In this document: positions 6,001 to 37,534 of the stretch, one piece after another
Position numbering within the stretch: the first letter of the stretch is position 1
Layout of the letters: the number at the start of each line of letters is the position of its first letter
Assembly: GCF_003947435.1 (NCBI RefSeq)
Contig: NZ_RCOS01000113.1
Span: 1 to 64,000, forward strand
Source: Candidatus Methanodesulfokora washburnensis
GTDB taxonomy: Archaea; Korarchaeota; Korarchaeia; Korarchaeales; Korarchaeaceae
DNA: 64,000 nucleotides
Direction of reading: 5' to 3'
The notes under the pieces: model-generated
What the model was told of the DNA's origin: nothing
Database searches by the model: none
What the model saw: only the letters and a program-made list of their open reading frames with translations
Translations under genes and position numbers: made by a program

Positions 6001-7781
6001 CAGGACACCTCCGCAACAAGCCTATTAAGCTCATCCTTTAGTTCTTTTAAGGCCTCTTCCAGCTCCTTATCAAACTCCTTCTCAGGAACGAACTTCAATC
6101 TTCTCAATCTCCCCAAAGAGGAGAGTCTCTGCATTTTTGATATAGGCACACCATAATCAAGCAGAGGCCGAGCCTCTCTGTAAAACTGTATTAAGGCTTT
6201 TAGAAGCTTAGCCTGCTTCTTTGGGGAGCAGAATGTATCCACTTCATGGTATGCATTTTGAACTAAGTAGCCTTCTCTTATTAGTTCTGCCTCCAAGAGA
6301 AGAAGTCTGTTTTCCTCTGAGAGGGCTGCCTCACCAACTACTCTAGCCACTTCCTCTAGTCCAGATGCCCTCTGAAGTATATCCATAGCCTCGGTTCTCA
6401 AGCTCAGCATATCCTCCCCAGAATTTCTCATCCACCACTCTTCAAGTCCAGATACATATTTAGAGAAGCTTCTAAGCCAATTTATTGATGGAAAATGTCT
6501 TCTAAATGCAAGATCTTTGTCTAAGGCCCAGAAAGCTCCTACGTATCTCATGGTATGCTGGGTCACAGGCTCGTTAAGATCTCCTCCGGAGGGGCTTACG
6601 GCTCCTATTATTGCCACTGATCCGATCTCATTTCTATTGCCCAGAACCTTCACTCTTCCAGCCCTCTCATAGAATGATGCTATATAATCAGGAAGATACG
6701 CAGGATATCCTTTTTCCGATGGTATTTCCTCAAGCCTAGAGCTAAGCTCCCTCAGCGCCTCAGCCCATCTAGATGTGGAATCTGCTGTCAGTACCACATG
6801 AAGGCCCATATCCCTAAAGTACTCAGCATACGTAATCCCCATGAATATGCTGGCTTCTCTTGCAGGAACAGGCATGTTGCTTGTGTTTGCTATCAACACG
6901 CTTCTCTCGAGAAGGGGTCTTCCGGTCTTTGGATCTATCAGCTTTGGAAATGTATGAAGAAGATCTGTCATCTCATTACCTCTTTCACCACAGCCTACAT
7001 AAACTACCACATCAGCATCAGCCCACTTCGAGATCTGATGAAGAGTTACTGTCTTTCCGGTACCAAATCCTCCTGGAACAGCAGAAGTGCCTCCCTTTAC
7101 TATCGGAAAGAAAGTATCTATAACTCTTTGTCCTGTAAGAAGAAGCTCCACTGGCTCTAACTTTTCCTTAAATGGTCTAGGGTATCTCACAGGCCATTTA
7201 TGATACATCTTCAGGTCAACTTTTCTCCCTGCCCTTTCAAGAGTAGCTATCACTTCCTCAACAGTATAATCTCCTTCGCTAGCTATTTCAGTTACTTTGC
7301 ATCTTCCCGTCCTCGGAGGAACCATTATTTTGTGATCTATCGCTCCTTCCCTCACAGTTCCCAGTACGTCTCCATCCTCCACTGTATCTCCTTTTTTCAC
7401 AACAGGCTTAAACGTCCACTTCTTGTCTCTTGGAAGCGTGGGAACTTTTATCCCTCTTGTTATAAATGGCCCTCCGGCTATCTCTGCCACAGCTTCTAGA
7501 GGTCTTCCGAGACCATCAAGAACAGATCCAAGTAAACCAGGTCCTAGTTCCGCTGAAAGTGGCTCTCCTGTTCTTTCAACAGGTTCTCCAGGCTTAAGTC
7601 CGCCCGTCGGCTCATAAACTTGAATTACTGCTACATCTCCCTCTACCTTAACTATCTCCCCAATCAGCCTTTCTTCTCCAACAAGCACTACCTCTCTTAT
7701 TTTAGCCCCTTTTAGATTCTCTGCAAAAACGACAGGACCTCTTATGTGGAGTATCTCTCCCTTTGCAAATACCTCCTCCAT
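6000..7781 (-). CDS. atpA: A/V-type ATP synthase catalytic subunit A
   Basis: Catalytic ATP-binding subunit of the A3B3 head, 593 residues, the usual length. It carries the P-loop GGFGTGKT (residues 237-244), the catalytic glutamate in GERGNE (about 265-270) and [15 protein letters not shown] (about 331-345). The family-specific non-homologous insertion (about 110-190) is present. The P-loop, a frequent intein site in other archaea, is uninterrupted here. Start and stop abut atpE and atpB exactly, as expected for a tightly coupled operon. Confidence 0.97.
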
Positions 7782-34089: not shown

Positions 34090-34164
34090 TGCTCCGGCCG
34101 GGATTTGAACCCGGGTCTGAGGCTCGAGAGGCCTCCATGCTTGGCCGGGCTACACCACCGGAGC
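34090..34164 (-). tRNA. tRNA-Glu (anticodon CTC)
   Basis: Acceptor GCTCCGG pairs with CCGGAGC; D arm GTGTAGCCCGGCCAAGCAT; anticodon stem GAGGC/GCCTC around loop CTCTCGA, giving CTC; T arm CCGGG-TTCAAAT-CCCGG. Discriminator A, no intron, no CCA. Its 34097-34138 part is nearly identical to tRNA-Pro(CGG) 1.2 kb away (see that entry). Confidence 0.95.
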
Positions 34165-34260: not shown

Positions 34261-35277
34261 ATGCCTGCTACTGTTGTTGTTGGAGGGTTCTATGGAGATG
34301 AAGGAAAGGGGAAGATACTGAGTTATCTTTCCCTTGCAGATGATGTGGATATAGGAGTCAGAGGAGGGGTAGGGCCAAATGCTGGACACACTGTTGTGTT
34401 TAAAGGGAAGGAGTTCAAGCTAAGACAGATCCCATCCGCTTTCGTTAATGAGAGATCTCTTCTCTTGATAGGCCCTGGTGTGTTGATAAATCCCGAGGTC
34501 TTTTTCAATGAGATAAAAATCACTGGAGCTGAAAACAGAATATACATGGATAAAAACTGTGGTATAATAGAGAGGAGACATATAGAGATGGATTCCTCTG
34601 ACCTTCACTTAAAGGGAACTGTAGGCACTACAGGAACGGGAACAGGTCCTGCAAATGCAGAGAGAGTCCTTAGAAAGCTTAAGATAGCAAGAGATGTGCC
34701 GGAGCTTCAGAAATATATAGAAGATGTTCCAAAAATAGTAAATGAGGCAGTCGATTCTGGGAAAAAAGTTCTCATTGAGGGAACCCAAGGCACATTTCTC
34801 TCCTTATGGCATACAGACTACTATCCATTCTGCACATCCAAAGACACGACTGCCTCAGCTATATGCTCAGACGTGGGTCTGGGACCGAAGAAAATAGATG
34901 ACATCCTAGTTATATTTAAATCTTATGTAACGAGAGTTGGGGGAGGGCCTCTCGAGAATGAGTACAGTGAGGAGGAGGCCAGAAGGCTGGGAATGCTGGA
35001 AGTAGCCACGGTAACAGGGAGAAAGAGAAGGTCGGCTCCCTTCAATTTCAAGCTTGCGAAGAGAGCCGTCATGCTGAATAGTGCCACGCAAGTAGCGATA
35101 ACAAAATTAGATGTGCTTTTTCCAGGGGCCTCAGGAGCCAGAAGATATGAAGATCTTCCCAGAGAAGCAAGGGATTTCATAGATATGGTTGAGAACGAGC
35201 TGAAAGTTCCCGTGACCCTTGTTGGAACAGGAAAAGATGTTATGGATGTAGTTGATATGAGAAAGGAGAAGCTTTAA
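34261..35277 (+). CDS. purA: adenylosuccinate synthetase
   Basis: GTP-dependent first step from IMP to AMP, 338 residues, the short archaeal form. GFYGDEGKGKI (about 8-18) contains the catalytic Asp and the GTP P-loop-like segment; GVGPNAGHTVVFKG carries the catalytic His; TGTGTGPANAERVLRK and TGRKRRSAPFN are further blocks. It starts at ATG 34261 after GGTTGGGGTAGAA and ends 3 bases before the tRNA-Pro gene on the opposite strand. Confidence 0.95.
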   Translation: MPATVVVGGFYGDEGKGKILSYLSLADDVDIGVRGGVGPNAGHTVVFKGKEFKLRQIPSAFVNERSLLLIGPGVLINPEVFFNEIKITGAENRIYMDKNCGIIERRHIEMDSSDLHLKGTVGTTGTGTGPANAERVLRKLKIARDVPELQKYIEDVPKIVNEAVDSGKKVLIEGTQGTFLSLWHTDYYPFCTSKDTTASAICSDVGLGPKKIDDILVIFKSYVTRVGGGPLENEYSEEEARRLGMLEVATVTGRKRRSAPFNFKLAKRAVMLNSATQVAITKLDVLFPGASGARRYEDLPREARDFIDMVENELKVPVTLVGTGKDVMDVVDMRKEKL

Positions 35278-35279
35278 AA

Positions 35280-35353
35280 TGGGGGCGCCGGGATTTGAAC
35301 CCGGGTCTGAGGCTCCCGAGGCCTCCATCCTAGCCAAGCTAGACTACGCCCTG
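35280..35353 (-). tRNA. tRNA-Pro (anticodon CGG), chimeric-looking
   Basis: Anticodon stem GAGGC/GCCTC with loop CTCGGGA gives CGG. The D arm (TAGTCTAGCTTGG) resembles tRNA-Pro(GGG) at 37459-37534. From position 26 through the T arm it equals tRNA-Glu(CTC) at 40 of 42 bases, differing only at anticodon bases 35 and 36. The acceptor reads CAGGGCG against CGCCCCC, so 1:72 (C-C) and 2:71 (A-C) do not pair. It may be a working tRNA with an odd end, or a conversion product under decay. Confidence 0.8.
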
Positions 35354-35405
35354 CAACTTAATGTGGTCTTTATAAAAACTGTTTCCCTGAGGTAGCAGGA
35401 AGATT

Positions 35406-36086
35406 ATGTTTGAGGATATCCTTACTATAAAAAGAGAAATCATGCACACCTTCGATAAAATAGCAGGTGATTACAGCAGCAAGAGGAGAAAGCCTTGGCC
35501 TGAAATAAAGCTTGTACACGGCCGAAGAGTATTAGATGCAGGATGTGGACCTGGAAGGAACTCAAAGTACTTTTTAGATGTGGGTTCTGATGTTTTCTCG
35601 GTGGATATATCAATAGAGATGCTCAGAATAGCAAGAAAGATGATCCCCGATGCTGAACTAGTACAGTGTGATATCACATCCCTTCCATTCAGAAACAATG
35701 CATTTGACTGCATTCTGCTTGTTGCAACACTACATCATGTGCCGTCTAAGCCGGAGAGATTGAAAACGTTAAAGGAGATATTTAGAGTGACATCTTGCGG
35801 AGGAGAAGTATTAATAACAGTATGGTCTGTTTTTCAGCCCAGATTTCTCAAAAAAATCCCTAGAATGGCATTAGATAGAATCTTGGGTAGAGTTAAAGAG
35901 CTGTGGGACACATATATTCCATGGGGAAAAGAGAAGAGATACTATCACCTCTTCTCAAGAAGAGAGCTTGTGGGTTTAGTTAAAAAAGCTGGTTTTTATG
36001 AGATAACTATTCATGAGGAGGGAATTTTTCCCAGAAACCATGTGGTGATAGCTAGAAAGGGAGTCGAAAATGGTGAGACATGCTAG
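35406..36086 (+). CDS. Trm9-like SAM-dependent tRNA methyltransferase
   Basis: Class I methyltransferase, 226 residues. Motif I is VLDAGCGPGRNSKYF (about 41-55), with motif II/III around FSVDISIEML and CDITSLPFRNNAFD. TVWSVFQPRF, DTYIPWGKE and RYYHLFSRRELVGLVKKAGF match the Trm9/ALKBH8 branch, which methylates 5-carboxymethyluridine at wobble position 34. The immediately following elp3, overlapping by 17 bases, makes the cm5U pathway very plausible. The specific substrate is inferred from similarity and context. Confidence 0.75.
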   Translation: MFEDILTIKREIMHTFDKIAGDYSSKRRKPWPEIKLVHGRRVLDAGCGPGRNSKYFLDVGSDVFSVDISIEMLRIARKMIPDAELVQCDITSLPFRNNAFDCILLVATLHHVPSKPERLKTLKEIFRVTSCGGEVLITVWSVFQPRFLKKIPRMALDRILGRVKELWDTYIPWGKEKRYYHLFSRRELVGLVKKAGFYEITIHEEGIFPRNHVVIARKGVENGETC

Positions 36087-37458: not shown

Positions 37459-37534
37459 TGGGGCCGGCGGGATTTGAACCCGCGACCACCAGCGCCCCAG
37501 GCTGGCATCCTGAACCAAGCTAGACTACGGCCCC
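37459..37534 (-). tRNA. tRNA-Pro (anticodon GGG)
   Basis: Acceptor GGGGCCG/CGGCCCC is fully paired; anticodon stem CCAGC/GCTGG with loop CTGGGGC gives GGG; the T arm contains GGTTCAAATC. Discriminator A. The - strand promoter box TTTTTTAAAC is near 37575-37584, where a TATA-like sequence also serves the divergent DUF92 gene. Confidence 0.94.

Follow-up and report, generated by a model that had tools for sequence, protein, structure and literature searches.

A proline tRNA gene with a mispaired acceptor end

Can a tRNA gene whose encoded 5' end does not pair with its own 3' strand give rise to a working tRNA, and how would the missing pairs be supplied? This question is raised by a tRNA-Pro(CGG) gene from a hot-spring archaeon, Candidatus Methanodesulfokora washburnensis, whose genus belongs to the Korarchaeia and whose genome (G000) is a 2.94 Mb draft. 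The gene lies in the window, the 64,000-nucleotide stretch of DNA that was analysed as a whole, at positions 35280..35353 of the minus strand. Both ARAGORN and Rfam detect it, with nt 1 at 35353, the discriminator A73 at 35280 and no encoded CCA. It has a cloverleaf, an anticodon of the NGG type (CGG, 35316..35318, minus strand, called by ARAGORN and read from the sequence), A73 and a Pro-type D arm.

The anomaly is found in the acceptor stem, where the 5' strand CAGGGCG faces the 3' strand CGCCCCC followed by A73. A first-pass annotation of this DNA had described C-C and A-C oppositions at the acceptor end, and this was borne out by ARAGORN, Rfam and RNAfold: C1 (35353) and A2 (35352) cannot pair with C72 (35281) and C71 (35282), respectively, and pairs 3-7 are Watson-Crick. 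In the RNAfold structure nt 1-2 are open and the remaining fold is intact. The covariance-model scan that the annotation had proposed, run here with Rfam, called 35280-35353 a tRNA with 47.7 bits, the lowest score of the nine tRNAs in the window and the second lowest of the 46 in the genome. No other tRNA among these 46 has a non-pairing acceptor pair; the nearby tRNA-Glu(CTC) (34090..34164) and tRNA-Pro(GGG) (37459..37534), both on the minus strand and used for comparison, have all seven pairs intact. A second, normal tRNA-Pro(CGG), which the annotation had named, together with a lack of expression of this one, among the observations that would count against it, was not seen, as a single one of the 46 Rfam tRNA matches carries the CGG anticodon.

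The best-supported explanation, to which we assign a probability of about 60%, is that this is a functional tRNA-Pro(CGG) that encodes no usable 5' end, and that a Thg1-like protein rebuilds G1, and in G000 also G2. That the mismatch might need repair or editing had already been suggested in the first-pass annotation. According to this model, the mispaired 5' bases (C1 and A2 in G000, C1 alone in its relative G002) would be removed from the transcript or would never be transcribed, their loss resulting from cleavage at the first paired base, from trimming or from initiation inside the gene. The Thg1-like 3'-5' polymerase would then copy C72 (and C71) of the intact 3' strand into G1 (and G2). 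Because the 3' strand would serve as the template, the identity of the encoded nt 1 would be free to drift, as it seems to have done in several korarchaeal tRNAs. We infer the expression of the tRNA and the removal and replacement of its 5' bases from the anatomy of the gene and from the in vitro repair carried out by archaeal homologues of the enzyme.

The genes on either side, which we consider neighbours outside this mechanism, are both on the plus strand: an adenylosuccinate synthetase gene (34261..35277) that is convergent with the tRNA gene, and a methyltransferase-domain gene (35406..36086) that is divergent from it. A TATA-like box, TTTTTATA (35371..35378, minus strand), lies 17 bases from nt 1, compared with a median spacing of 22.5 in the 172 promoters scored from 220 upstream regions. 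This spacing allows for initiation inside the tRNA gene. However, a spacing of 17 occurs in six genes, including four other tRNAs with normal starts, and is therefore no proof of internal initiation.

The Thg1-like protein and tRNA-His

The genome encodes an intact Thg1-like protein of 256 amino acids, which matches PF04446 (Thg1, 1.1e-21) and PF14413 (Thg1C, 2.8e-12). Its best match among solved structures is the Methanosarcina acetivorans TLP 5axk (184.9 bits, E 1.8e-53; the next best scores 61.4). The LDG motif (from residue 28) and the SDE motif (from residue 75), in which the palm has its catalytic carboxylates, align with those of 5axk. In vitro, tRNAs with a truncated 5' end are repaired by archaeal TLPs, as stated in sections of PMC6471195 and PMC4284800. 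Against repair, the gene in G000 would need two Gs, whereas the M. acetivorans TLP is reported to add a single G to tRNA-His in vitro (PMC6471195).

The same protein would also be needed for another task in G000. The tRNA-His genes of G000 and G001 have C73 and do not encode G-1, with A or T at position -1; passages in PMC6471195 and PMC4284800 treat an archaeal tRNA-His of this kind as an exception. Among the 22 genomes with a tRNA-His match, an encoded G-1 is absent in 16, all of which have Thg1, compared with three of the six that encode it (Fisher p 0.013). A match to PF04446 is present in 22 of the 26 genomes G000-G025. The tRNA-His gene of G000 (L066, contig C162:3396-3481, minus strand) contains an intron and is labelled Tyr(GTA) by ARAGORN. 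At locus L002 of G000 (contig C173), the Thg1-like gene (ORF 6985-7755) lies immediately 5' of tRNA-Thr(TGT) and in the same orientation; in G002, too, it is near tRNA-Thr(TGT) (L157).

Recurrence of pair-1 mismatches in Korarchaeia

We surveyed 247 tRNA genes in six genomes, 120 of them from G000-G002 and 127 from G010, G011 and G017. Pair 1 is G-C in 221 genes, A-U in 16, C-G in five and non-pairing in another five. The latter are Pro(CGG) of G000 and G002 (C:C), Pro(TGG) of G010 (U:C), Ile(GAT) of G011 (U:C) and Ala(CGC) of G017 (A:C). In all five C72 is kept and it is the 5' base that has changed. Pairs 2-7 are unbroken throughout the survey except for A2 of Pro(CGG) in G000 and three Rfam matches that look badly modelled and were set aside, namely Ser(CGA) of G001 and the tRNA-Trp found in both G010 and G011. 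When 29 genomes of the phylum were searched with sequence patterns, the same five genes came up and one more, an Ile(GAT) in G022 with A1:C72, again with C72 retained. One of these searches gave 14 matches, of which 12 were judged off-register and two real (G011 and G022). Another gave 68, inspected by eye: 49 were tRNA-Gln with a normal A1, six were mismatched tRNAs and 13, for 11 of which stem pairing was examined, were no tRNAs.

In G010 and G011, with estimated completeness of 96% and 99%, the mismatched Pro(TGG) and Ile(GAT), respectively, are the only isoacceptors of their kind found, so that it is unlikely that these genes are non-functional. The Ile(GAT) gene of G009 starts with a normal G. 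The cases in G010, G011, G017 and G022 are each known from one assembly, and only for one pair of species is a case common to both.

The main rival to repair is that the mispaired end is simply tolerated, the tRNA being processed in the usual way and keeping one or two unpaired 5' bases at the least constrained pair of the stem. We consider this unlikely, although it is the alternative that has to be taken most seriously. Every case involves pair 1, where fraying is cheapest, and even Pro(CGG) of G000, having lost pairs 1-2 of seven, retains an otherwise intact fold. Moreover, bacterial initiator tRNAs function with an open 1-72 pair, which favours tolerance. On the other hand, the restriction of all five changes in the survey to the 5' side, with C72 kept, is what a template role of the 3' strand predicts, and the two broken pairs of the G000 gene would be harder to bear than one.

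A comparison with another class of archaea also speaks against tolerance. As a control, the pattern for A1 or T1, which excludes C at position 3, was applied to 115 genomes from the class that includes G033, a Thermococcus-like genome that has no Thg1 match; the structure 1q3r is a Thermococcus protein. ARAGORN found no tRNA at any of the 43 matched loci, and hence no tRNA with A1 or T1 was found by this pattern in the control genomes. Mismatched tRNAs of this type thus occur in four of 29 korarchaeal genomes against none of 115 controls (p 0.0014), where the pattern covers 103 of 247 korarchaeal tRNAs and five of 17 in 560 kb of G033, G033 is the control genome that was examined for Thg1, and assembly quality is a confounder, most control genomes being near complete.

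Within Korarchaeia an association between mismatches and Thg1 has no statistical support, with mismatches in five of 22 genomes that have it and in one of four in which it was not detected. The mismatched one of these four, G022, is 63% complete. Two genomes that lack Thg1, G003 and G007, encode G-1 and have no mismatch detectable by pattern search. Extending the repair reading beyond this locus, we put the odds only slightly above even that Korarchaeia have a general tRNA 5'-end editing system in which a Thg1-like reverse polymerase uses the 3' strand to supply nt 1 (and 2).

The two tRNA-Trp matches set aside in the survey, L329 (G010:C34:7491-7586) and L352 (G011:C2:110650-110745), contain an intron and have acceptor positions 6-7 unpaired, which may point to one more intron or to some other unusual form of the gene; the Rfam matches for G000, G001, G002 and G017 include no tRNA-Trp. 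The tRNA-Ser(CGA) match of G001 (L177, G001:C10:6087-6157) scores 27.3 bits with broken 5' pairs, and is probably mis-bounded, a plausible GCCGGGG start being located upstream.

Conservation of the gene between Methanodesulfokora species

The closest relatives available for comparison were G002 (JAGDWR010000068.1, about 37x coverage), which also belongs to Candidatus Methanodesulfokora, and G001. The G002 orthologue has the same TATA-like box and the same C1:C72 mismatch, but its second pair is G2:C71, nt 2 being the sole position within the gene that differs between the two genomes. From nt 3 to nt 74 the genes are identical at 72 of 72 positions (and G001 is identical there too), whereas in the flanks of G000 and G002 identity falls to 117 of 144 and 97 of 120 aligned positions, or about 81%. 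At this flank rate, 72 of 72 would be expected with a probability of about 3e-7. Judged from these alignments, the comparison shows that purifying selection acts on the rest of the gene. In G001, where Pro(GGG) lies about as far away, the end of tRNA-Pro(CGG) is a normal GGGGGCG and the sequence upstream of the gene is different.

These data bear on the possibility, also raised in the first-pass annotation, that the mismatch marks decay. Such a gene would be decaying or unexpressed, with CCG codons read by tRNA-Pro(UGG); indeed, a tRNA-Pro(TGG) with a normal acceptor end is present in G000 and could read CCG by wobble, and the Rfam score of tRNA-Pro(CGG) is the lowest in the window. A pseudogene would have lost constraint along its length, however, and both the tRNA body (with flanks differing by about 19%) and the promoter box are conserved. 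CCG accounts for 114 of the 775 proline codons in the window's ORFs, and the comparable mismatches of G010 and G011 affect a Pro(TGG) and an Ile(GAT) gene, respectively, for which no second copy was found there. Decay is contradicted by this conservation across species and we regard it as improbable.

A further alternative is that the true acceptor end is a G(-1):C72 pair, with the C bulged by a one-base insertion and the stem sufficient in itself. A G does precede C1 in both G000 and G002. Nevertheless, it would not make A2 pair with C71 in G000, and nt 1 is preceded by C, A, T and G in G010, G011, G017 and G022, respectively, so that this reading fails for the set as a whole; for the gene studied here it is very improbable.

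Least plausible of all is an error of sequencing or assembly in a metagenome-derived genome: although every case is known from assembled sequence and A2 is seen in G000 alone, C1 recurs in a second, separate assembly, the coverage of one of the two being about 37x, and errors would scatter along the stem rather than cluster at nt 1. Taken together, the sharing of the mismatch with a second species and the 72/72 conservation indicate that it is the product neither of decay nor of an error in one assembly.

Relation to known 5'-end repair systems

The repair reading has its closest parallel in the 5'-editing of mitochondrial tRNAs in Acanthamoeba, Dictyostelium and Spizellomyces, where, as in Korarchaeia, mismatches with a wrong 5' base occur in the first acceptor pairs. 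As that system is presented in portions of PMC4284800, the 3' template strand is intact and a Thg1-like polymerase is encoded. The korarchaeal cases likewise have their mismatches within pairs 1-3, an intact 3' strand and an encoded Thg1-like protein, except that none was detected in G022. The systems differ in extent, since 12 of 15 mitochondrial tRNAs are edited in Acanthamoeba, according to the same portions of PMC4284800, and here a few tRNAs of an archaeon are concerned and the editing is a proposed one. The korarchaeal mismatches make a mitochondrial-type process a candidate in archaea but do not prove it. The activity that removes the 5' bases had not been identified even for mitochondria, as far as the relevant part of the 2014 review PMC4284800 goes.

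Addition of G-1 to tRNA-His by Thg1 involves the same enzyme family and the same chemistry, a G placed opposite a C. In that case an extra nucleotide at -1 is added opposite C73, whereas here it would be nt 1 (and 2) of the tRNA body that is placed opposite C72 (and C71), in tRNA-Pro, tRNA-Ile and tRNA-Ala. In the in vitro repair by archaeal and bacterial TLPs (MaTLP, BtTLP and the Ignicoccus TLP), an absent 5' end is restored from a template, as we propose here; the substrates in those assays were lab-made, and it is to a TLP (5axk) that the G000 enzyme is closest among solved structures. In Nanoarchaeum equitans, too, tRNA 5' ends do not arise from standard leader cleavage, the tRNAs being leaderless (as reported in a portion of PMC4284800). 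There, transcription begins at the correct nt 1, whereas the genes described here encode a wrong base at that position.

In the sections of the 2014 review that address the matter (PMC4284800), annotated bacterial and archaeal tRNAs are said to encode no 5' mismatches, and 5'-editing in bacteria or archaea would be the first outside organelles. Our search of the open-licence literature, with subscription papers outside its scope, found no report of archaeal tRNA genes with 5' mismatches. The tRNA-Pro(CGG) of Methanodesulfokora may therefore represent the first natural tRNA 5'-end repair outside organelles. General editing of this kind in Korarchaeia would be the first at tRNA 5' ends outside the organelles of eukaryotes, and would give an archaeal Thg1-like protein a natural substrate. 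Such proteins are present in many archaea and synthesise RNA in the reverse direction, with no established natural job there; their natural substrates are described as unsettled in parts of PMC6471195 and PMC4284800. The korarchaeal genes do encode mismatches, and the organisms concerned possess the enzyme; the exact tRNAs and bases can now be named for tests. Under general editing, tRNA genes, even apparently sole ones such as those for Pro(UGG) and Ile(GAU), would be free to drift at nt 1. Should this be confirmed, mitochondrial 5'-editing would gain a prokaryotic counterpart, and gene callers should not deem such tRNAs defective.

The glutamate-like segment

The first-pass annotation had also interpreted the gene as a Pro/Glu chimera. 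The similarity on which this was based is real: segment 35287..35328 (minus strand) matches 34097-34138 of tRNA-Glu(CTC) at 40 of 42 bases, and the two differences are the anticodon bases that it named. The chimera itself is a weak proposition, as the segment also fits other tRNAs of G000, with 39 matches to Glu(TTC), 38 each to Pro(TGG) and Asp(GTC), and 35 to Gly(TCC), a gene that bears an intron and is labelled Arg(CCG) by ARAGORN. In G001 the Pro(CGG) segment is identical at 42 of 42 bases and Glu(CTC) scores just 37. In three genomes of a sister genus the scores are 28 for Pro(CGG) and 37 for Glu(CTC). These scores show that Pro(CGG) and Pro(TGG) of the genus shifted toward the Glu/Asp type before the species split, mainly at two stem pairs and the variable region.

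A recent gene conversion between Pro and Glu was considered and rejected, as no specific donor or recipient emerges and G001 keeps the segment in its Pro gene with a different Glu. A link between the Glu-like segment and the 5' mismatch is likewise not supported, the segment being old and present also in the normal Pro(TGG). In G001, Pro(CGG) and Pro(TGG) differ at the wobble base only, and appear to have been homogenised within that genome; in G000 and G002 the same pair of isoacceptors is 93% identical over nt 3-74.
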